Virus record (IMG/VR): IMGVR_UViG_3300029787_000265
Location: 1 to 26,964 of that record
DNA length: 26,964 nt
Source: a virus
Reading direction: 5' to 3' (one strand)
Part shown: piece after piece, positions 1,082 through 23,361 of the stretch
Numbering within the stretch: the stretch's first letter is position 1
Layout of the letters: every line of letters starts with the position of its first letter
Notes under the pieces: model-generated
What the model was told of the DNA's origin: nothing
Seen by the model: the letters and a program-made list of their open reading frames with translations, nothing else
Databases searched by the model: none
Program-made: the position numbers and the translations under genes

Positions 1082-1088
1082 ACAAGAT

Positions 1089-1117
1089 ATTATAAACTAT
1101 GCATATAATTTATGCAA
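1089..1117 (-). promoter_or_regulatory. Sigma70-like promoter for gp55-gp47
   Basis: Read on the minus strand, TTGCAT (1117-1112) and a perfect TATAAT (1094-1089) are separated by 17 bp, the ideal spacing for a housekeeping bacterial promoter. The -35 matches the consensus only in its TTG. The TATAAT ends 7 nt before the gp55 ATG, so the predicted start point falls at or just before the start codon, leaving essentially no leader. The region is A+T-rich, so a TATAAT by chance is possible; the spacing and position upstream of a minus-strand gene pair support it. Confidence 0.55.
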
Positions 1118-1123
1118 TAAATA
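1116..1123 (+). promoter_or_regulatory. Late-promoter-like box before gp48
   Basis: AATAAATA differs at one position from the T4 late promoter TATAAATA, which occupies the -10 region and is recognised by gp55. It ends exactly 6 nt before the chosen ATG of gp48 (1130), with no Shine-Dalgarno sequence between. The same box and spacing recur before three other genes in the window. It physically overlaps the -35 element of the opposing gp55 promoter. Confidence 0.65.
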
Positions 1124-1129
1124 TTTTTG

Positions 1130-7010: not shown

Positions 7011-7018
7011 AATAAATA
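7011..7018 (+). promoter_or_regulatory. Late-promoter-like box before gp6
   Basis: AATAAATA sits in the 33-bp gap between gp25 and gp6 and ends exactly 6 nt before the gp6 ATG (7025). It is the same octamer, at the same distance, as the one before gp48. No Shine-Dalgarno sequence lies in the A+T-rich stretch upstream of gp6. Confidence 0.65.
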
Positions 7019-7024
7019 ATTGCA

Positions 7025-10000
7025 ATGGCATCAACCAATCGTCAAAACTCTTTACTTGCCACAAGAGCATGGCAAAGAATATACAGAACTTTCCAACAAG
7101 CAGACTTCAAATCGTATGATTTTGACACCATTAGACGTACCATGATCGATTACATAAAATTGAACTATGCTGAGTCTTTCAATGACTTTATTGAATCATC
7201 AGAGTATGTAGCACTCATTGATCTAATCGCTTATGTGGCACAGTCAATATCTTATAGAGTTGACTTAAATGCTAGAGAAAACTTTATTGACCTTGCTGAA
7301 AGAAAAGAATCAGTTTTGAGACTTGCAAGGCTTATATCATATCAACCCAAAAGAAATATAGCTGGTTCCGGATTCTTAAAAATTGATGCTATTTCAACAA
7401 CAGAATCTGTTTTCGATTCTTCCGGAAACAATTTGGCCAACACTGCCATATTATGGAGCGATGTGACAAATGACAACTGGCAGGAACAATTTAATGCAGT
7501 ATTAAATGCATCTTTTCCACGTGAACAGTTTGTAGGTAAGCCAACAGCAAAAGATACAATTAGCGGAGTGCCAACAGAACAGTATAGAATAAATGGAAAC
7601 AATCTATCTGAACCAATATTCCCTTTCTCTAAGAATATAAATGGCGTCAATATGGACTTTGAAATAGTACCTGCTTCTTTTTCCAACAACACATTTTTAT
7701 ATGAAGAAGCACCTATCCCTGGCAACTCATTAAGTTTAATTTATAAAAATGACAACAAAGGATTCCAATCAAACAATTCAGGATATTTTGTCCACTTTAG
7801 ACAAGGCTCTATTAAAACACAGGATTTTTCTGTAACTAATTCCGCTCCTAATACAATTGTTTCTATCACAGAAAACAACATCAACAATGATGATGTGTTT
7901 TTGTTTAAATTAGATCAAAACAACTTAATAGAACAAAGATGGACCAAAGTACCTGCTATTACAGGAAACAATATAATTTACAATTCGTTGGAAAATAATG
8001 TTAACAACCAATATGCTGTAGTTACAAAAGCAAACGACCAAATTGACTTAGTATTTTCAGATGGAGTGTATGGCACACTACCACAAGGAAATTTTAGATG
8101 TGTGTTTAGACAAAGCAATGGACTAAGTTATCAAATACAACCAACTGACATGCAGAACATAACAACCAATATTGATTATGTTTCTAGAAACGGACAAGCC
8201 AATACACTTACAATTGTTGCATCTCTGAAAAGCACAGTAACAAACGCATCTGCATCTGAATCTGTGCGTGACATCAAAACACAAGCACCACAAAGTTATT
8301 ATTCAAACAATAGATTAATTACTCCTGAAGATTATCAAATTGTTCCTAAAATTCAAAATCCATCTGTAGCTAAAATTAAATCTCAAGTAAGGACAGCATC
8401 AGGTGTATCAAGATTCTTGGACATAGTAGATCCAACTGGAGTATATTCACAAACAGATGTAATAGCAGATGATGGCATGTTGTACCAAGAAGAAGACACA
8501 GAATCATTTGACTTCCAATTCTCAACCAATGATGATATCAGTAAAGTCATTGTTAATCAACTTGATGATGCGATCAAGTCAGCATCACTAAGACAGTTTT
8601 ACTATAAAAATTATCCAACACTAACAGCAAGTAACATTACATGGAACAAGTCAACACAAACTACAAACCAAGTCACTGGATACTTCACGGATGGTAGTCC
8701 AGTTGCAGTAGGATCTTCAACCACATCCAACTTGCGATACGTTACAGAAGGCTCCTTGGTTAAATTTACAGCACCCGCTGGCAATCATTTCATGTTGAGC
8801 AACGGCACACTAATGACAGGCACTGGAGGACACACTGGATCATCAGATATTGCATGGGCAAAGATAGTGTCAGTGACAGGTGACGGCAGTAACAGTGGCG
8901 CAGGCAATCTTGCAAATGGCAATGGCCCAATTGTCCTGAATGACTTGATACCATCCACAGCAATATTATCAGAGATTATACAAAATTTAAACACCACACT
9001 GACAACTACATTACAAAATACAATTATAGAACAAGTGGGATTATACAACAATTTTGGACTAGGATATGATGTAGACACAGCATCTTGGTACTACATTGCT
9101 GAAGATGATTTGAACACTGGTGCTTTTGATTTAGACAATGCAAAAAACACAACCAGTGCCAATCTTGATGCATCATGGCTAATAAGATTCTCAACTAATG
9201 GAGTTTCATATACTGTGTTCAATCGTGCAACAAAATACATTTTTGAATCATTTTCAAGGAACAAATTTTACTTTGATGAGTCTGTAAAAATTAATGATCC
9301 TGAGACTGGCCTACTTATTAAAGACAAAATTAGAGTGTTGAGATCAAATGTTGGACCTGATTTTTACACAAGTTTAAAATATGACTATGATTGGCAGATT
9401 GTTAAAAATGTGCTAGGAGAAGATGGATATGCAGATACCAGAAAAATGCAGGTTGGATTTTTTGATAGTGACGATGACGGTGCTGTGGACAATCCTGAAC
9501 TATTTGATATAATTGTTGCACCACTATCAGATGTTTTGAACAAATATGTTTTTTTTAAAGAAGCAACTGAAAATGGAATCACAGTATATAATCCAGTTAC
9601 AAATGCAGACTTTGTGGTGGCAGCTGCTGAAACTGATATTGACGATGCAAGTGTGTATCCAAATGGACAATTATTTTATTTTTATAACGCTGACGAATTC
9701 AAACAATATAATAGCACCACAGACGCCACAGCAGTAGTCACTGGATACAGAGCAAGAATAGGAAGACAAGACATTTTATACAATTACAAACATGGCGCTC
9801 CAAGATCAAGAAGAATTGATCCAGCAGTTTCAAATTTAATTGATGTATACATGATTACAAAAACATATGACACAAGTTTGAGACAATGGCTTGCTAACAA
9901 TCAAGTAACAACCAAACCAACTGCGCCAACACTGTTTGACTTAGAAAATTCTTATCTGTCAAATCTAGACGAATACAAAAGTGTATCTGATGAGATTGTA

Positions 10001-10558
10001 ATTAATCCAGGAGAATATAAACTTGTGTTTGGACCTGGAGCAAATGCTGAACTACAATGTCAATTTAAAGTTGTAAAAAATGCAAACACGAATGTTTCAG
10101 ACAACCAAATTAAATCATCTGTAATCAATGCAATTAACACTTATTTTTCACTTGAGCTTTGGGACTTTGGTGATAAGTTTTATTTCACAGAATTAGCTGC
10201 CTACATACACAATCAACTTGCTCCGGATTTATTGAGTGTGGTCATTGTACCAGCACAGAGCACAAATGGTTTTGGATCTCTCTTCCAAATTAATTCGGAA
10301 GACAACGAAATATTAATTTCATCCGCCACAGTGGATAATGTAGAAATTATTTCATCTATCACCGCTGATAAACTAAAAGCCACCGGCACAGTGGTTACAT
10401 CATCCACTGCGGCCACAAGTACAACATCCACTGTTGCCAGCGTTAGTGATACCACAACGACAACCACTGCTACAACTACACCAAGTGCATCTACCACAAC
10501 AACAACATCAAGCACTTCATCATCCAGCAGTTCAGGCAGTAGTGGAGGTTATTACTAA
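7025..10558 (+). CDS. 6: gp6-like baseplate wedge protein, enlarged, with Ser/Thr-rich tail
   Basis: A 1177-residue protein recognisable as gp6, the wedge protein that forms the inner baseplate ring. The N-terminal 120 residues carry the family core: [20 protein letters not shown] (15-34), [20 protein letters not shown] (63-82), then [19 protein letters not shown]. Later segments include [11 protein letters not shown], typical of gp6 and baseplate J-type proteins. T4 gp6 is 660 aa, so this form is nearly doubled, mostly by beta-rich insertions in the second half. The last 60 residues or so (from about 1120) are almost only Ser and Thr, ending SSGGYY. The final codons also carry the GGAGGT that serves the next gene, and TAATG joins the two genes. 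Confidence 0.88.
10390..10549 (+). repeat. Low-complexity Ser/Thr-coding repeat at the end of gp6
   Basis: An imperfect run of ACA, ACC, ACT, TCA, TCC and AGC codons encodes a Ser/Thr stretch of about 50 residues with little other content. The reading frame stays intact to the gp6 stop. Such tails are usually disordered or elongated. The simple trinucleotide pattern suggests length variation by slippage. Confidence 0.75.
10544..10549 (+). promoter_or_regulatory. Strong Shine-Dalgarno for the giant wedge gene, inside gp6
   Basis: GGAGGT, a near-ideal Shine-Dalgarno sequence, lies with 8 nt between it and the ATG at 10558 (9 nt counting from GGAGG). It is also read in frame as the two glycines near the gp6 C-terminus. 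It is the strongest ribosome-binding site I noticed in the window, and it precedes the largest gene. Confidence 0.8.
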
Positions 10559-13500
10559 TGGCCACATCCAGTAGAAAATCATCTGATTTACTTCCTGAAA
10601 TATTCCAAACAGAACGTAACAAAAAGTTTTTAAGTGCAACTATTGATCAATTGGTCGAACCAAGCAAACTAGAAAAATTATCTGCATATGTCGGACAAAG
10701 ATACACACCTTCGTATAGATCATCTGATGTGTTTTTGGATGAAGTAACACAACAACGACAAAACTATCAATTAGAGTCCACAGTGACCTATAAGAGTGAT
10801 GGATCCAATATAGACTACGCACAACAATACATTGACTTTGTGAATGAAATTGCCGCACAAGGCGGATCAAGTGCCAAGCATGATAGATTGTTTGATCAAC
10901 AACACTATGCCTATGCGCCACCAATTGATGCTGATAAGTTTGTGAACTATAGACAATACTATTGGCTGACTGACAAATTATCAGCAGTGTCTATTGCAAC
11001 AGGTGAAGGCGCCACCACAACATTTGGTGTTGGATCTAAAGGATTTGAATCATGGACATTCACACACAAGTCAACTGATAATCCCGACCTGATTGTGTAT
11101 AAAGGTAACACGTATAATTTTGATGTGTCGGCATTGGGTAAGAATTTTTGGATAAAAACAAAGCCTGGCACCGGCACTGACAATGGATTTGATAGCGTGT
11201 ACGTGGACAACAACGGAACAGATAATGGCACAGTCACATTGCGTGTGCCAGCTGCTGATTCTTCAACTACTAATCCAAATGTTTTATATTATCAATGTGA
11301 AGAACACAGCGAAATGCTTGGTCGAATAATTATCCAGGATCTGGATGATCATAAATTTAATCCCGAAGAAGCAATTTTGGGTGTGCTTGGATACACTGAC
11401 AACACAGGTTTTGCACTGTCAAGCGGCATGCAAATTACATTTCCGTCTACAATAAATTCAACTTATGCCAGCAACACTTATTATGTTGAAAATGTAGGCA
11501 AGTACATTATTCTTAAAAAAGACACTGAACTAGAAGTTGTGGAAACTTATACAGACAATACTGCCGCTGATTATTGGACAATCAATAGAGGATCAGATGA
11601 CGGCAACGCATGGTCAAGATACAATAGATGGCATCATATTGATGTAATCAACTCAGTGGCAACCAAAAACAATACCACTATTGCATTGACTGAAACTTTG
11701 AGAGCAAAAAGGCCTATAATTGAATTTATACCAGGTCTTGAACTTTATAATCATGGACTTAATCATACCATAGTTGATGTAATTGATACTACACAAACAG
11801 ATGCATTTTCCCGAGTGCAAGGCACAGCAGGATACATTGCTGATGGAGTCAGTCTAACAACAGGCACCACTGTTGTGTTTACAGCAGATCCTGAACAACG
11901 TGACAAAATATACACAGTTGAACTTTTAACACTGACTGATTCCACACAAATTGTATACCTACAGTTGGCACAAACAATTACCGCCACACAAGATCTATCT
12001 GTGACTGCAAGAAGTGGAACCAACAACAAAGGCAAAACATATTGGTTCAACAACAATGCTTGGAGTTTTGCACAACAAAAAACAGCAGTGCAACAAAAGC
12101 CATTGTTTGATGTGTACAATTCAGACAGCACAGGCAGACACAATAGTTTGTCTGACACAACAACATTTCCTGCATCCACTTTTGCTGGGTCAACACTGTT
12201 TGAGATTGCCACAGATTCATCACAAGGAACTCCAGACACAGTGTATGGCACCAACGTGATATATGATCGGATTGGTTTGATCAATGATATACGGGTCAAT
12301 GACACTTTTAATTCTGATACATTTACATACACATCTGGATCAACCATAGTCACAGGCAACATCAGATCACATCATTTTCATGTGCAAAGAACAAATATTG
12401 TAGAAGATTCAACTCCTGATTACGGATTCACTTCCATGAACAATTGGAAAACACTTGTAAACAGTAGTCCACAAAAAATTGTGCAAGTATACAAAGCACA
12501 AAAAGATGAAGAATATTTTTTAATTGACCAATACAAAAACACAAACACATTATCTGATCTAGTTGTAGAAGTATTAATTAATGGAGTTGAATCAACAAAT
12601 TACAGCCTAAGCACAATTAATCAATCCAAGTATGTGCAGTTGACCACAAAAGCCTCTGCAGATGATATTATTACTGTGAAGGCATACTCTAACACTGGTA
12701 CTCCTTCGGGCAAAGGATTTTATGAACCATCCATTGCTTGGCAAAAAAATCCTCTTAATGAAAATGTAACTCAACTTACACTTGGAGATATAATTGACCA
12801 TTTTACCTCTGCCAGTCAACAGATGCCTAATTTCACAGGCACATCTATTGGATCTAATAACAGTAGGGACATCAACACTCCATTCCAATATGGATCTGTG
12901 ATCCTGCAACATTCAGGATCAGTGCCATTAGCATCTGTATTTCTAAAAGACTCTGTAATGAACATTCCAAAAGCAATGAGATTTGCAGGCAGAGAGTATG
13001 AAAAATTTAAAAATCAACTGATCGATAATGCCAATAATATATCACTGGATGACACAGATGAAAAAAATCTTGATAGGTTACTGAGATCAATAAATGCAAA
13101 CAAAAGTTCTACATTTCCTTTTTATAAAAGTGACATGTTGGGATATGGCGATGACAAAACAACACTAACATACACAGTAACCGAAACTGCATTAAACTAT
13201 TATCCTATTTCCACACTGTTTACTTTAACTACACTAAGTGAAAAGGCAGTTTATGTGTATCTCAATGACACACAATTGGTTCATGACAAGGACTATACAT
13301 TTACCACAACTGATGATTCTTCAAATCAAGTGGGCATAGAAGTTGCTGTAAGTTTAGCAGTTGGTGATGTGCTTAAAATTGTGGAGCACAACAACACCTT
13401 TGCATCATACATTCCACCTACTCCAGCCAAACTAGGATTGGCATCAAAATATAAGCCTGAAATATATTATGATACATCATATCAATCTGAAGATTCTTCA

Positions 13501-16500
13501 GTCAATGGAATACAAGTGCTTAGAGGACATGATGGATCAATTACAGTTGCGTACAATGACTTCCGTGACAACATATTATTAGAATTCGAAAAAAGGATTT
13601 ACAACAATATAAAAACACAGTACAACGCTGATATCATAGACATCAATCCAGGATTTTTCAGAGACAGCAGTTACACAGACATCGAATATCAAAAGTTTTT
13701 CACAAGGGACTTTTATGTGTGGACTGGATCTAATGCTGTGGATTACACAACCAACACAACATTTGATTCCGGCAACGACTTTACATTTAATTACAGCAAC
13801 AACAACAATTCAATTGATGGCACTGCATTAAGCGGGTATTGGAGAGCCATATATAAAAAATGGTACGACACAGATACACCACACACTACTCCATGGGAAA
13901 TGTTTGGCTTCACCGAAAAGCCAGCATATTGGGATGACAGATATGGACCAGCTCCATACACATCAGGCAATGAAGTTTTGTGGAACGATGTAGTCGATGG
14001 ATTCATTGCAGGAGGCAGTAGAAAAGGTTACTACAAAAAATATGCTCGCGGCACAAACTTCTTGTCTGTGATACCTGTGTCAAGCACTGGAGATCTTTTG
14101 CCTCCAACCAATGCTGGTTTACTCTCAAACACTACACTCACACTTGGATCAACATCTGCCAATTGGAAGTTTGGTGATGAATCGCCAATTGAAACTGCAT
14201 GGCGTAGATCCTCAACTTACAGATTTATTGAACAGATTGCAAAATTTTTAGCTCAGCCAGCTCAATATGCTGGATTGCTATTTGATTACTCAAGAATTGA
14301 ACAAACCTTTTTCGGCGGAGACTTTGTGTATGAAAACGGATTAAGAACATCTCCGTCAGGACTTAGACTGCCCACTGGTACAAATCTTACTGCAGGATAC
14401 ATCAACATTTTATATGATTATGTCACACAGTTAGGATATTCTCCAGACACATACATTGCCAACCGATTAGATAATTTAAACGTACAGTTAAGTTACAAAA
14501 TGGGTGGCTTTACTAACAAAAATAATTTACAAGTTGTCATTGGGGCAGTTTCTCCAAGTTCAACAAATAAAAGTGTATTTTTGCCACAAGAAAATTATCA
14601 ACTACTGTTGTACAAATCAGCTCCAGTCGTAACCAGTAACTATTCTGGAGTAATTGTTGAGAAGAGCAGTGGAGGATATAAAATAAGTGGATATTCAAAC
14701 TATGATAGGACTTTTACAATTTATTCGCCAGTCCAAAACAACAATTTTACTAACATACGCATAGGAGCAACAACAGAATCATTTAGCCTTTGGCAAGCAG
14801 GTGGATTTTATGTCAAAGGAGCAATTGTAAAAAATGGCTCTGTATTTTATCGTGCAAATGACAACGTCAGCAGTGGACAAACTTTCAATGAAGACAATTG
14901 GTCTGAAATAGGCGCCGCACTGCCACTAAAAGGTGGTGTTGTTGTGCAGAAATACAAAATATATGAACCAACTACCACAACAGTTACATATGGTACTGAA
15001 TACAAAACAGTGCAGGAGGTTGCAAACTTTTTGTACGGGTATTCACAATATTTGGAGACACAAGGTTATGTGTTTGATGAATTTTCCAAAGAACTTGATC
15101 TACCTCTCAATTGGGACCTTTCCACAAAAGAATTTTTATTTTGGACCACCCAGAATTGGAACACTGGTTCTGTAATTACTTTATCCCCTGCGTCTAAACA
15201 ATTAAAATTTGTAAAAGAAAATACAGTTGTTGACGATCTTACAGCAGGAGATCAATTCTACACTGTGCTTCAACAAGATGGATTGCCGATTAACAGCAAC
15301 AATTTGTCTACTAATCGTTTAGATGGTACATTCACACTTGCTACCAACCCAGATGAAGATGGAATATACAACGCAGACATCAAAGCAGTGCAAAAAGAAC
15401 ATTTGTTAGTGTTGGATAATGCAACAAGTTTTGGAGATTCTGTGTTGAATCTAAAAACAGGTGCAAGACAAGATAGAATAAAATTAGTTGGTTTCAGAAC
15501 AGCAGACTGGAATGGTGACATATATTCTCCAGGAAGTGTTATTGATAGAGCAATTATTTTCGATTGGACTAGCAACACAGATTATAAAATTGGAGATGTT
15601 GTAATTTTACAAAACAAAACTTATGTTGCAACTGTGAATCATACATCCGGCACAACCTTTGATGCTAGTAAATTTAGGCTGAAGGAAAATACACCCTCAG
15701 CAGATTTATTTCCAAACTGGGACGCCAAGGCAGAATCGTTCAGGGATTTTTACAGTTTAGATACAGATAACTTTGATGCTGTGCAACAAGAATATGCACA
15801 ACATTTGATCGGTTATCAAAAACGTAGTTACTTTGAAGATCTTGGCCTGGATGAACTGACCCAATACAAGTTTTATCAAGGTATGATCAAAGACAAAGGT
15901 ACTATGTTGCCTATCAAAAGATTCAAAAGTTTAGAACAAGCCAACCAAAGCAACACCTATGATGTGTTTGAAGAATATGCGTTTAGAGTTGGCGAGTATG
16001 GAGGACATCGAACACTAGGTGAACATGAGTTTACGGTTGATGAAGAAAAGCACCTACAACAAAAACAAGTTTATCAAATCACTGATGACGCAAAGGCTGA
16101 TACTGATGTTGTAATCAATGTTAGCAAAAGTGATCTAATAAAAAGGCCTGTTGACTTTTCAACATCCATTTTTCCAACCATTACATATTCATCCAACAAC
16201 ACACCACAATCAATATTTGAATATCCTATTGCAGGATATGTAAGACAATCACAAGTAAACACAACCATCTACAATGAAGCAGAATTGTTAAACATATCTG
16301 CAGTAAATCTCATTGAAGGCTTTACGGTATGGATTGCAAACACTTTAGTCGGTGACTGGGATGTGCGTAGATTCAATATTCTAAATTTAAACATTGTTGA
16401 TTACATACAGTTTGATGACAAACTACAATTTAGATGTGCATCACCACATGGCCTACAAGCTAATGAATACATTGGCATAACAAATTTTGGATCACTTGCA

Positions 16501-19500
16501 GACGGTGTGTACCAAGTGGCTACAACTGCTGACAGCACCGACAACATTTATAATTTTACTGTAACATACACAGACACAGTTGATAGTAGTTTAAGCAGAG
16601 GAGTGGTAGGAAAATTTGAATCCGTTAGATTCAACTCTATTGATGAGATCGATGATGCTTCTCCCCCTAAAGGATATGCCATTGGTGATAACATTTTTAT
16701 TGACAATGATTACACATCCAGTGGAGGCTTATGGCAAGTCTATCAAAAATCAGCTTCAACACAATATGAATACAATGCATCAACTGTATTAAGTGAAACT
16801 GATACCCCTGAAGCAAAATATGGCAACAGTATTGCTGTTGCAACTGATGATAGCTACATCACAGTAGGTGCTCCTGGCATCAACACAGTGTACATGTACA
16901 AGCGTCCAATTGACTTTGATTCAACATCAATCACTGACTTTGCATTGACCACACAGATTACTTTGCCATATCTAAACGACAGCACACTGGACACAGGCAA
17001 TGATAATTTTGGCCAAGTTGTAAGGATGACGTCAACAGGATCAAGAGCATTTGCATCAGCACCAAACAGTAGCAATCTTGTTAAATTAACACTAACCACA
17101 ACTGGATTATCATTTGACATTGGAGAAGAACTAAGACAAGCATCAAATGGGGCAAGAGGCGTAATTTTAGATTTCGATGCAGACAATGATATAATTGTTG
17201 CACGTCAAACAACCACAACCGACTTCACAGATGATTCATCCTTGTTGGATGTGCATGATTCTTCATCAATTGTTGATATTATTAAGGTGGAGGGCACTGA
17301 AGGAGCCAACCAAGGACTTGTTGCTGTGTTGAAAAGAAACAACGATAGTTCATCAGTGAATTATTCTGTGGATCAATATCTTACAGCTCCTAATCTAGAT
17401 CGCGGTGGTTTATTTGGACATGACATGTCTGTGTCAGGAGACGGCACATATCTTGCTGTTGCTTCTCCAGGTGGACCAAATGATTCAACTCTATCCGAGC
17501 GTGGCACAGTGTACATGTACAAATACAACACCACAACACTAGAATATGATTTTAATCAAACACTGGCTGCTTCAGAAGAAGTTGGAGCAAGGTTTGGAGA
17601 ATCAATTAATATTTCTCAAGATGGCACTGTGTTGGCTGTGGGTGCAAGTGAGGCAACTGACTCAACAACCACAACAGCAGGAAAAACATTTGTGTACAAA
17701 CTAATTGATACAACTTGGACACATGTGGAAACACTCAGGGGCGGCACTGTTGAAATAGACACAAAATTTGGAACCAGTGTCACTGTCAATGAATCAGGCA
17801 CAGATATCTTAGTGGGGTCACCAAACGAAACTGTGATCAATGGCAACAGCGGGGCAGTGCATCACTTTAGCAATCAGTCTGAATCATTCACTGGTGATGG
17901 ATCCACAACACAATTCACAACAACTTTCACAATCAATCATGACGAAAAACTCACTGTGTTGGCAGGCACAACCAGATATGTGGTAAGCGATGGAGTCAGC
18001 ACCAATCAATATTCAACAGACGGAACAACCAACATTGTTACACTTAGTCCAGCACCTGCATCTGGATCTGCAATAACCATATCACAGTATCAACGCACAA
18101 AAATTATTGCGCCACAGTCTGTGTCAGAAAGTGTTGGATTTGGAAGTCACATAGAAGTATACGACAATGATCTTGCTGTGTTCAGTTTACAAGGAAACAT
18201 TAAACAAAAAACTACATTCGATACAGTGGCCACAGATGGTTCAACAAAATTAACTGGCACAACTTTTGACAAAAGCACAACCAAGTTTGCTGACACAACA
18301 ATGGACACTGGCACAGTGTCCATATACAACAAATATGATACAAATTTTGTGTTTGATCAAACATTGTTGCTTCCTGGCTTGGCATCCGGAGATCAATTCG
18401 GGCAGTCAACTGCTTTTGCTACACAAAATTTATACGTTGGTGCACCATTGAATGATGCAGTAGCATCCAACAGAGGCAGTGTGTATCAGTTTAGAAAAAA
18501 CGCCAATGACAAATCATGGGTAACACTTGCAACACAACCAAATGTAATTGATGTTGAAAAAATACAAAAGTCATTTGCATTTGATAAAACAACAAATGAA
18601 TTACTAACTAGATTACAAATCATTGATCCTGCTAAAGGCAAACTGTTTCCTGAAGTGGACGCTAACATTCAATATAAAACTTTGTATGATCCAGCTGACT
18701 ACATCAGTTGGGATGAAAAACAAGTTGGTCAGGTATGGTTTGACTTGTCCACAATCAAGTTCCAATGGTATGAACAAGGAGACTTGACATACAGATATCA
18801 AAACTGGGCAAAGTTACATCCTAATGCAATTGTCAGTATGTGTGAATGGAAAAGAAGCGATGTGTTGCCAACCAGATACAATGAATTATCAGCAACCAAT
18901 GAAGGTGTTGCACAAGGATACACAGGCACAGCAAGAACAGACTATGTGACTGCAAAGTTTTTTGATGATGCAAAAAATACTTTTGTTGATTACTACTATT
19001 TTTGGGTAGTAAATCCAACAGAGTTGCCTGGTATATCAACAAGAACACTCACTGGAGCACAGTTGGCACAAGCAATTGAGAATCCAAACAATTTTTCAGA
19101 AAGTTGGGCTGCGGCAATAGACACAGATGCTGTGTTGTTGTCTTTGAGAAAAAGTTTCTTGTCTGATACAAACTTTGTTGTGCATTTCGAAACAACAACA
19201 GATGCGGAACCTTTGATTCCTCACACAGAATATCAAATGGTTGCTAAAGGAGACAACACAGTTGCTATTCCAACAGCACTAACAACTAAGTTTCACGATT
19301 CGCTTGTTGGAAAAAACATCACAGGGGCTTCTGTGCCAGATGCCACACTACCAACAAAAATGCAGTATGGCACACTGAATCGTCCACGTCAAAGTTGGTA
19401 CAGCGATAGATTGGCCGCATTAAAAGTTTTAGTGCAATTTATCAATGACAAATTAACCAAAAAAGCCTATGTGTCATTGTACAACATTGATACATTACAA

Positions 19501-22500
19501 AAAGTTGATCCTATTCCAAACGTCAAAACAAGTGTATACAGTGACACTGTTGACACAGACACTGAACTTGATTATGTTGACACAACAACACTGACTTCCG
19601 GTTACAAAATACTGGTCAAAGTAGATACCACTGCCAACAATGGATGGCAAATTTACAATTGGACAGGCACTGATTGGATTGGATACAGCAAACAATCATT
19701 TAACACAAACAACTATTGGGAATTTGAGGATTGGTATGCCACTGGATATGACAGCGGAGTTTCTGTGGACTACACAGTTGCTAATGAACAAACAAGAACA
19801 TCAACATCATATGTTAAGGGCGAAATAATAAAAGTTTTAGCATCCTACGATGGTAACTTTAGAATATATGAAAAAACACATGATGGATTTGAAACAATTG
19901 CAATACAAAATGGAACAATTAAAATAAGCGAAACAATATATGCAGAAGCCACTGAAGATTCAAGTTCAGTCACAGACTCAACAGAAAACACAGCGGCAGG
20001 AGAAGAGATTAGAAATATATTCAGTTGGATACTGAATGACATTGATGATGATACACTACAATACAATGATATATTCTTCATTGGCATTAGACTTGCACAA
20101 ATACAAAACAAAGATGCTGACTGGGTGTTCAAATCATCATTTGTTAAGATAAAAAATACTTTTGCACAATTAAGTCAAGACAGAGAATATCAAATAAACA
20201 CATCCGATGCAGTTAAAGAATTTTTGGAAGAAATATTGCCATTCAAAACAATAATTAGAGAAGAAAACACGCTGTATCAAAACACTGATAATTTTAGTGG
20301 TGATCTTACTGACTTTGATAATAAGTCATATTATGATTTTGAAACTAAATCCTACATTGCACCAACAGTATATTCTGATAATTCAACTTACTATGATGTT
20401 TACAATTCCAATCCATGGAAATTGTATTCTGACAACTACAAATATACTGTGTCTTCAATTGAAATAATAGATCAAGGACTTGGCTACACTGAAGCGCCTA
20501 TCATCACAATAACAGGCGGCGGAGGATCTGGAGCCACTGCAACCGCAACAATTTCAGCTGATTCAGTTGGAATTGTGACATCAATCACAGTGACAGACCC
20601 AGGAAGCGGATACACATCCAATCCAACAGTAACAATTACAGGCGGTGGAGGTGATGCAGTGACAACAACTGCTAGGGCCTATGCAATGTTGTCTAATAAC
20701 ACAATTAGGAAAATAGACAGCTTAATTAAGTTTGACCGAATCAATTCCTTAAAAGAAACATCCAACAACACCATTGTTGCTTGGACACCACAAACAACAT
20801 TTACGGCTGGCACAAACATTAGATATGAAAACGAAATATACCGTGTAACTGCAACATTCACATCCAACGACAACTTCATTGATGCAGTTGGCCTAAGTGA
20901 TTCTTCAACTGTAAATGTGTTCAATGATGATTCAACAATGACAAATGACTCACCATTAGTTAAATGGTCGGCCACTGATAGGATACATGCCTACTATGAT
21001 CCAACAGCTAATATGGCTGGGTTAATAGGCGATGGATCCACAGCGTTAAATTCTTATGCACAATTAATGACAGGACTTGAATATCCAGGAGTCAAAGTGC
21101 TTGCCCCTGGACTTGCAAATGGTGAAGCATATGATAATGGTGGATATGACTTGTTTACATACGATAAACTTGTATCAGATCCGGCTACTCCTGCCAATGA
21201 ACTTGCAGACTTGGATCAAGTGTTGGATTCTAAAACATTCAATACAACACTAGGCTCAAGAGCTGAAGACATTAATGTTGTTGGTGATGCTTTTATTTCA
21301 GAATATTCTGCACATGCTCCTGAAGAAGTCATCCCAGGTGGAGTTTATGACACTATGGACATGAAAATTTATACCCAAGCATCTGATGGCTCATCTACAA
21401 TCCAAAAGAAAATATATTATGGCGATGGTGCTACTACACAGTTCGATGCTCCTGTGATAGGAGTGATAGAAGGCTTAAGAGTTTTTGTTGACAACCAATT
21501 TAAACAAGAAGGTGTTGATTACACTGTGACTAAAGACGCCGACAACAACTTTATAACCTTTACATCAGCGCCTGCATTAAATCAAATTATTAATTTAGTG
21601 GGGATACAGGTATCAGTTGAAAAATTAATTGCAAAGTTTGACAAACGTGGCGATGGATCAACTGTTGCATTTGATCTTCCAATTACTTTTGATAGAATAC
21701 AACAAAATTACACTTTAGTAAACGGAGTGAAAACTTCTGTTACACTATCGAATAACGATTCTGTGTCCACCACAGCTACGTTTGCCTCAGCGCCAGCAAC
21801 TGATTCGCTTATAGAATTATTTTTATTCAATCTAGATTCTGGCACAAAGGCATTTTCAGAAGTGATCGAAACAACCTACAATGAAATAGAAACAGACACC
21901 ACAGAGCATTTTGTGACTTTAACAACAACTCCTGGGGTGATTGGTCCGTTCCACAACAAGGTTATTGTAGAGGCCATGGCAGGAGATAGCACCAATAGAT
22001 ACCGACTAGCACCACCACAAGCAGTGTACTACACTGGTGACGGATCAACTGCACAATTTGCCATAGCCAATGATCCTATTGCAAGTGCAAACGCAACAAC
22101 TTCAAACACAGAAGTTTATAAAAATGGCGTACTGCAAACAAGTGGATTTACAATATCAACATCTTCGATTGGAAAAAAAGTTGTGTTCACAAGTGCACCA
22201 GCAGATGATGACAACATTGCAATTGTTTTATTGTTAGGACACGATTACGAAATTGACTCAAACGGCAGATTAATCTTAAAAGCAAACTGGTTCGGTGGCG
22301 ATTCTACCATAGACAGTGGTCAGGTTGTAGTTACAACATTTACAAATCATGATCAAATGGGACTAAGAACACAAGTGTTTGCTCCTTCTACTGATAACAA
22401 ATACACTTTATCATTGACTCCTATTAATTCCAGTTATGTGTTTGTTGCGTTTAACAAAGCAAACCTTACTGCTAATGTTGACTTTAAAGTTGAAGGAAAT

Positions 22501-23361
22501 GTTGTAACCATTGCTGGCACACAGCCTGATATAAGATTAATTACTGCTGATGATAATTTTTTCAAAGCAGACGAAGGAGAAATCACAACAGACATAGATA
22601 ATATAGGAGAAGTAGTAATCACATATGTTGCTGGTGATCTATCAAAGTCAGCATTCGGATACAGAATATTCAAAGATATTGTAAACAGATATCATTATAG
22701 ACGACTAAGTTTAACACATTCAACACAACTGGCAGAAGACTTGGCTGTGGATGCAACAAGCATTACAGTGAAAGATGGCACCAAACTACCAAATCCATCT
22801 GTTACAAATAACATTCCTGGAGTGGTCTTCATTGGCACTGAAAGGATAGCATACTTTGACAAGACTGGGAATGTGCTATCAAGATTATTCAGAGGCACAC
22901 TAGGAACAGGAGTACAAACACACTCAGGAGGTGATTTTGTTGTTGATGGTTCAAAGGTACAAGAAGTGCCATATGAAGACACAGTAAACAAATTTACTGC
23001 CACAGCAGATGGATCAACTATCAATTATGATGTTGGGTATAAAATTGAAAGCAGAAACGAAATCAATGTGTTTGTTGGAGGAACAAAAACTGAAGCATTT
23101 ACAATTGGTGAAGGTGCAGATGCCACTGACATCACTGCGGATGAAACAGAACTTACTGCTGATCAAACGTATGCTGGCACCAACGTGGTGCTAACAACAG
23201 CGCCAGCAAATGGTGTAAAAATAGAAGTAATCAAAAAAACAGGTAATGTTTGGTATGATCAAGGTGAATCTACAGCTGCAAATGGCAAAGGATTGCAGGC
23301 TGCGACTGGCAAAGAAGTATTGTTCTTACAAAAGGAACCCACTGACCTAAACTTATTTTAA
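10558..23361 (+). CDS. Giant gp7-like baseplate wedge/structural protein, modular, 4267 residues
   Basis: A single uninterrupted frame directly after gp6, where T4 has gp7 (1032 aa). The N-terminus ([16 protein letters not shown]; then [19 protein letters not shown] and YRQYYWL) resembles giant marine T4-like structural proteins labelled gp7 or VrlC-like in my memory of the literature. Visible modules in order: a cupredoxin-like domain (about 170-260); a family segment [16 protein letters not shown] (about 385-400); [20 protein letters not shown] (from 1214); [20 protein letters not shown] (about 1760-1780); a seven-bladed FG-GAP-type propeller (about 2087-2660) with a GDGST module inserted; a glycine-rich GYTxxP tandem repeat (about 3300-3380); and four more GDGST-type beta modules (about 3622-4240). 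An [26 protein letters not shown] domain precedes the last one. No signal peptide or membrane segment is seen. Translation is coupled to gp6 through TAATG and a GGAGGT site. The gp7 assignment is by position and general resemblance; a baseplate structural role is more certain than the number. Confidence 0.72.
11095..11337 (+). other. Cupredoxin-like domain within the giant wedge protein
   Basis: Residues about 180-260 read as a cupredoxin-type beta-sandwich: GNTYNFDVS (183-191), FWIKT (197-201), a beta hairpin [11 protein letters not shown], then [14 protein letters not shown] with Cys247, His250 and Met253 in a C-x2-H-x2-M arrangement like the C-terminal copper loop of plastocyanin-type proteins. 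The N-terminal histidine ligand expected after strand one appears replaced by Lys195-Asn196. Copper binding is therefore uncertain and the domain may be purely structural. Confidence 0.5.
16801..18540 (+). other. Seven-bladed FG-GAP-type beta-propeller within the giant wedge protein
   Basis: Seven repeats with the pattern aromatic-Gly...(D/S)-(D/G)-x-x-(L/I)-A/T-V-(G/A)-(A/S)-P...G-x-V-Y-x-(Y/F) occur between residues about 2087 and 2660. They begin [24 protein letters not shown] (degenerate), [48 protein letters not shown] and [12 protein letters not shown]. Seven is the blade number of integrin-alpha-type propellers. A GDGST-type module (about 2446-2515) is inserted between blades five and six. 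Such folds usually bind proteins or glycans. Confidence 0.7.
20455..20690 (+). repeat. Glycine-rich GYTxxP tandem repeat within the giant wedge protein
   Basis: Two copies of a unit of about 40 residues: [19 protein letters not shown] followed by [19 protein letters not shown], each followed by Ala/Thr-rich strands. They sit at residues about 3300-3380, between the wedge-like middle and the C-terminal beta modules. Confidence 0.7.

Follow-up and report, generated by a model that had tools for sequence, protein, structure and literature searches.

Divergent putative early and late promoters share bases at a conserved spacing beside the late sigma gene in a group of T4-like viruses

Late promoters of phage T4 consist of an 8-bp NATAAATA box placed a helical turn before the transcription start, with no general -35 element, and the box is read by a gp55-family sigma with a sigma2-like region (PMC2988020; PMC7892883); gp55 reads it as a -10-like box, and gp33/gp45 sit on the upstream DNA (PMC7892883). 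In RB49, S-PM2 and Syn9, T4-like phages without MotA/AsiA, host-type and late promoters are superposed, both of them facing one gene, and a role in middle expression has been proposed for them (PMC2984593). The locus described here appears to combine promoters of the same two kinds, but they face opposite ways, the early one toward the late sigma gene itself. It lies in the window, by which we mean a complete 26,964-base IMG/VR record from an aquatic T4-like virus of bacteria, in the gap 1082–1129 between two divergent genes. A first-pass annotation had placed in this 48-bp gap a TTGCAT-N17-TATAAT promoter facing gp55 and a late box facing gp48; a sequence check found these motifs and their coordinates correct, and the claim that the opposed promoters overlap, the -35 reaching into the late box and the extra C before it, was borne out at 1115–1117. 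The relevant features are:

2–268, minus: 5' part of a gp47/SbcD-type nuclease gene, downstream of the sigma gene (PHROG 100, E = 1.6e-18)
302–1081, minus: gp55-family late sigma gene, a long form of 259 aa whose N-terminal part is large (PHROG profiles)
1082, minus: predicted transcription start of the sigma gene, 7 nt after the -10 and one base before the ATG
1089–1094, minus: -10 hexamer TATAAT of the putative host-type promoter facing the sigma gene (read from the sequence; in a fixed place in 28 class-1 lineages, see below)
1095–1111, minus: 17-nt spacer with an AAATTAA-type core, conserved above the neutral level
1112–1117, minus: -35 hexamer TTGCAT (read from the sequence; TTGACA in most of the more distant class-1 and class-2 relatives)
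1115–1117: shared bases, the TTG of the minus-strand -35 being the CAA before and at the start of the plus-strand late box
1116–1123, plus: putative late-promoter box AATAAATA facing gp48 (supported by enrichment of ATAAATA upstream of ORFs in related records)
1129, plus: predicted late transcription start of gp48, from T4 spacing (box at -13 to -6), one base before the ATG
1130–2035, plus: virion structural protein at the place of gp48, opening the baseplate run (PHROG 12050, E = 2.1e-40)
2035–2334, plus: gp53-type baseplate wedge subunit (PHROG 7145, E = 1.3e-25)
7011–7018, plus: second perfect NATAAATA box, an internal comparison, 6 nt before an ATG (7025), with no divergent gene

The overlap thus amounts to two base pairs plus the preceding C. 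On the plus strand C1115 is followed by the box AATAAATA, 6 nt and the ATG at 1130, with an in-frame TTG at 1127; on the minus strand the TATAAT is 7 nt from the sigma ATG. The -35 is weak, as TTGCAT agrees with the TTGACA consensus in TTG only. The first-pass annotation had the two transcripts beginning at or next to their start codons, and the usual spacings indeed predict starts at ~1082 (minus) and ~1129 (plus), so that going by these spacings the sigma and gp48 mRNAs would be essentially leaderless.

The minus-strand gene, claimed to encode gp55, is a genuine member of that sigma family: its ORF matches PHROG 12791 ("sigma factor for late transcription", E = 1.2e-77) and PHROG 234 (E = 2.4e-22), and a profile built from its relatives matches T4 gp55 in PDB 7d7c (E = 1.3e-9) over the sigma2-like part. 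At ~260 aa the sigma exceeds the 185-aa T4 gp55 by a long N-terminal part, and no conserved clamp-binding tail stands out clearly; when 14 relatives were compared for a clamp-binding motif, the tails after PS.TR were short and variable. The related phage CBB has been reported to lack gp33 and gp45 (PMC5259590), and our search with the clamp profile PF02916 gave no match in the records searched, the control giving none either. The identity of gp48 rests on gene order beside gp53, because the product of 1130–2035 gave no match in a profile search of solved structures. The sigma-gp47 order also occurs in PA5oct and the Rak2-like phages, and in the window a candidate host-type promoter, TAGACA-N17-TACAAT (276–304, minus), stands immediately in front of the gp47/SbcD-type gene, leaving ~8 nt to the ATG of that gene. 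Elsewhere in the window, 10558–23361 (plus) is a single open frame of 4267 aa.

Neither promoter motif exceeds chance within the window, which contains 46 one-mismatch TATAAATA sites against 41 expected and 16 sigma70-like sites against 16.8 expected; as the window alone cannot lift either motif above chance, relatives were compared. Of the 88 copies of ATAAATA in eight long records from the window's group, 71 lie at most 35 nt upstream of an ORF, against 3–13% for heptamers of the same composition, and in three groups of related records (71/88, 52/80 and 20/30 copies upstream; upstream fraction ~2%) ATAAATA is the top of all 7-mers upstream of ORFs. The T4-type NATAAATA motif has a modal position 5–6 nt before the ATG genome-wide in relatives. 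The first base of the late box is free in relatives (A25 C12 G12 T15); the first base is likewise variable in the NATAAATA motif of cyanophage S-PM2 (PMC2984593), and A at -13 is a natural variant of the T4 late box (PMC2988020). As to the host-type promoter, the intergenic TTGACA-N16-18-TATAAT sites with 0–1 mismatch listed for two long relatives (G001 and G002) lie in front of ORFs, those listed for G001 often 6–8 nt before the ATG, and a perfect TTGACA-N17-TATAAT stands at the sigma gene in many, more distant relatives. The window itself has TATAAT and the weak TTGCAT at 17-nt spacing. Judged by these sequence comparisons, both the putative late box and the putative host-type promoter are real as classes.

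To follow the gap through relatives, viral contigs were scanned with sigma or gp48 queries; the sigma query gave 307 usable loci, named phages included, which form 106 lineages at 90% sigma identity (100 environmental, 6 represented by named phages). Class 1, the window and 27 other lineages, has CAATAAATA, with CAA abutting TAAATA; its -10 (TATAAT, TATACT, TATAGT, TATATT or near variants) and the start of the box are exactly 27 nt apart. In class 2, made up of 31 lineages, the sequence is GTCAACTAAATA, in which one inserted base separates CAA from TAAATA and the distance to the -10 is 28 nt. Class 3, whose 38 lineages include PA5oct and the basal L033, has no -35, and carries a ATGTGCTATTAT-like element fixed 15 nt from the late box; with less certainty we read this element as a putative extended -10, a reading made uncertain by a search for TGTGCTATTAT as a general promoter, in which TGTGCTAT was upstream of ORFs in 0 of 9 copies in one relative (G015). 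Among the environmental lineages 96 of 100 fit one of the three classes, the misfits being L030, L031, L343 and L009, where the box is cut by the end of the contig. As class membership itself uses the geometry, a fairer test is the histogram of distances from -10-like element to box in 104 lineages, which, with a few class-3 rows labelled class 1 here and in the sigma tree, peaks at 27 nt (32), 28 nt (31) and 21/24 nt (32/35) with little elsewhere. Within class 1 the elements stand at a single distance from each other, whereas the -10 lies at 13 different distances from the sigma ATG and the box at 14 from the start of gp48. Class 2 occurs in two places of the sigma tree, as L206/L208 inside class-1 lineages and as the large L313–L390 group.

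The first-pass annotation had proposed comparing this gap among related phages for joint conservation, and had held that loss of the overlap in close relatives would count against it. Late box and host-type promoter turned out to be jointly conserved in sequence and spacing and the overlap is kept across dozens of related viruses; the one natural exception is L006/L007, in which the late box consensus is gone (AAAAAATA) and the host promoter is intact. By this sequence comparison the observation is confirmed, and it is stronger than the window alone could show. The arrangement is also largely peculiar to this locus: 35 of 183 NATAAATA/NCTAAATA boxes upstream of ORFs in 12 records lie at divergent junctions, and among these 35 the 27/28-nt geometry with a host-type promoter was found at the sigma junctions and at one other. 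That junction (L406, G014:C1:88937) has TTGAC/ACTAAATA in the 28-nt geometry between 219-aa and 353-aa genes, which are unrelated to sigma and gp48. A different pairing is seen at G005:C1:66968-66997, where two late boxes face opposite ways within 30 bp between 253-aa and 467-aa genes.

Late boxes often stand 4–8 nt before the ATG without a Shine-Dalgarno sequence (window, 1123–1130 and 7018–7025; G001, G003, G004 and others), so that a leader would be missing from many late mRNAs in the window's group. By this criterion 10 of 19 late mRNAs in G001 would be leaderless, an SD-like stretch being present in 1 of 19; leaders with SD prevail in the class-2 records G011 and G012.

The bases themselves are under constraint from the overlap. 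CA precedes TAAATA in 28/28 class-1 hubs and in 8/65 other late boxes (Fisher P = 6.6e-17, a value that overstates independence because the lineages are related), which argues that the opposite-strand -35 constrains the late box. Between lineages with 50–60% sigma identity the elements are 93% identical, a figure that six class-3 rows counted there as class 1 would, if anything, have reduced, against 35% at fourfold sites and 31% in the flanks. Some of the fixed spacing of class 1 is automatic, since it follows from the shared bases and the 17-nt spacer rule. In class 2 the late box has C, not A, at -12; T4 gp55 takes base -12 of the late box into a pocket (PMC7892883), and with this A replaced the class-2 gp48 late promoter may be weak. 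The 17-nt spacer is itself more conserved than either promoter requires: its pair identity over the same range of sigma identity is 0.62, where fourfold sites have 0.35 and the flanks 0.31, and the spacer conserved in class 1 has near-invariant A/T columns in class 2 too. Over-conservation of this kind makes a further binding factor possible. Among known candidates, a MotA-box (T4 middle-mode) reading of TTGCATAA was rejected, as compared with the MotA box consensus it has two mismatches and lies 15 nt, not 12–13, from the -10; MotCF (PF09158) gave no match in the records searched, and the control also gave none. A palindromic operator AACT-N4-AGTT fits some relatives only, not the window, and a general promoter class sharing the spacer was set aside as the other host-type promoters listed for long relatives do not have it.

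The reading we prefer, to which we give a probability of about 0.5, is that the gap is an early/late hub at which host-sigma polymerase makes gp55 early and gp55-polymerase later throttles it, with the spacing under selection. The minus-strand, host-sigma70-type promoter would serve the gp55-gp47 operon and the plus-strand, T4-type late promoter the gp48-gp53 baseplate run. Early in infection host-sigma polymerase would transcribe gp55; as gp55-polymerase accumulated it would open the late promoter facing gp48, and its occupancy would cover the gp55 promoter from the -35 through the spacer to the -10, giving less gp55 while the baseplate genes continue. An RNA polymerase footprint spans tens of base pairs around the start. 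Since the two footprints would overlap here, two polymerases could not sit at the hub together, and as occupancy would be mutually exclusive, occlusion of the gp55 promoter by gp55-polymerase is the simplest reading of the throttling step. The DNA upstream of the late box, where gp33/gp45 are found in T4, is here the gp55 promoter. A built-in brake on the late sigma is thus plausible, and the locked spacing may have been kept because exclusion and dual use of the same bases are selected. Only tentatively would we take the step further, in which the ~35-bp locked stretch would be a true switch, gp55-polymerase shutting its own gene and turning on the baseplate operon, with sigma identity setting the direction and no repressor involved. 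If the hub is real, it would explain how the level of a late sigma is controlled once late genes are on, its own holoenzyme blocking the host promoter. The one-base fixed geometry yields sharp predictions for the brake, and the cultured relatives PA5oct and the Rak2-like phages have related layouts.

The same facts can be read in other ways. Relatives are 92–98% coding and the window's gap is 48 bp, so that two divergent promoters squeezed into a short space could share CAA for plain economy, the overlap having no regulatory meaning. We consider this unlikely, given that L001 has 31 nt more between the -10 and the sigma ATG and the overlap is still exact, that classes 2 and 3 have ordinary Shine-Dalgarno leaders with the spacing of the elements unchanged, and that class 2 shares no TAAATA base with TTGACA, yet its spacing is fixed. 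Conservation of sequence and spacing over lineages that are saturated at neutral sites, together with the independent constraint on the shared CAA, also makes it hardly credible that one of the elements, TTGCAT-TATAAT (minus) or AATAAATA (plus), is a chance match, even though each motif occurs at chance frequency in the window and TTGCAT is a poor -35.

A relay from one polymerase to the other is conceivable too, in which host polymerase would start the gp55 gene and gp55-polymerase at or near the hub would later continue it. Tandem overlapping early and late promoters are known for RB49 and S-PM2 (PMC2984593), and sigma-ward late boxes at the -10 or ATG were found in 9/31 class-2, two class-3 and two class-1 lineages: boxes fused to the -10 (TATAATAAATA/TTATTATAAATA) in L036, L042, L314, L330, L336, L341, L345, L363 and L377, where 2.4 class-2 lineages were expected from shuffles for TATAATAAATA, and also in L298 and L307, and boxes next to the ATG in L043/L079. 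These boxes suggest gp55-dependent gp55 expression that would keep gp55 on late, and because in such lineages a late box faces gp55, the simple negative feedback drawn in the first-pass annotation cannot hold family-wide. As a sigma-ward late box is missing from the window and from most lineages, such a relay cannot be the general function, and as an explanation of the hub we hold it to be quite improbable. A third protein that binds the spacer (TTAATTTT / AACTA region) and sets the geometry, promoter overlap being a consequence, would account for the spacer identity and the invariant A/T columns, and for the absence of this spacer from other host-type promoters listed for the same genomes. 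We think this very unlikely: there is no candidate regulator or consistent palindrome, the MotA-family search was silent, as was its control, and class 3 carries a different sequence there.

Set against other phages, the preferred hub joins known ingredients in a new fixed arrangement; in the open-licence literature searched we found no conserved, base-sharing, divergent early/late hub at a late sigma's own gene. The group differs from T4 in its sigma, which runs to ~260–280 aa, has a long N-terminal part and shows no conserved clamp-binding tail that is obvious, and in the near-leaderless form predicted for many of its late mRNAs. The genes gp55 and gp48 are not divergent in the T4-like HTVC008M and P-SSM4, where gp55 follows a helicase gene and a small gene. 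In Atu_ph07 and Phosso the first position is taken by a nucleotidyltransferase-type gene that faces away from sigma; the Atu_ph07 gap keeps GTAGTTAATTTGTCAACTAAATA with no good -10 at 17 nt, and a scan of viral contigs with its sigma as query returned only Atu_ph07 itself. Vibrio phage 2.275.O and SCTP-2 have the divergent order found in PA5oct and the Rak2-like phages (CBB, GAP32, 121Q, XbC2, Muenster), that is, gp48-gp53 opposite gp55-gp47, and PA5oct and the Rak2-like phages also share the late motif ATAAATA (PMC5259590). The late box of eight Rak2-like phages is 33–34 nt from a sigma-ward TATAAT, against its -35, and differs from the arrangement here in that box and -35 share no bases; where the -35 would be, CBB, GAP32 and XbC2 carry TGGAACG, which resembles the TGAAACG motif (PMC5259590). 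Outside phages, plasmid pLS20 has two overlapping divergent promoters whose regulation involves DNA looping (PMC4207663); the competitors at the hub proposed here would instead be holoenzymes with different sigmas.
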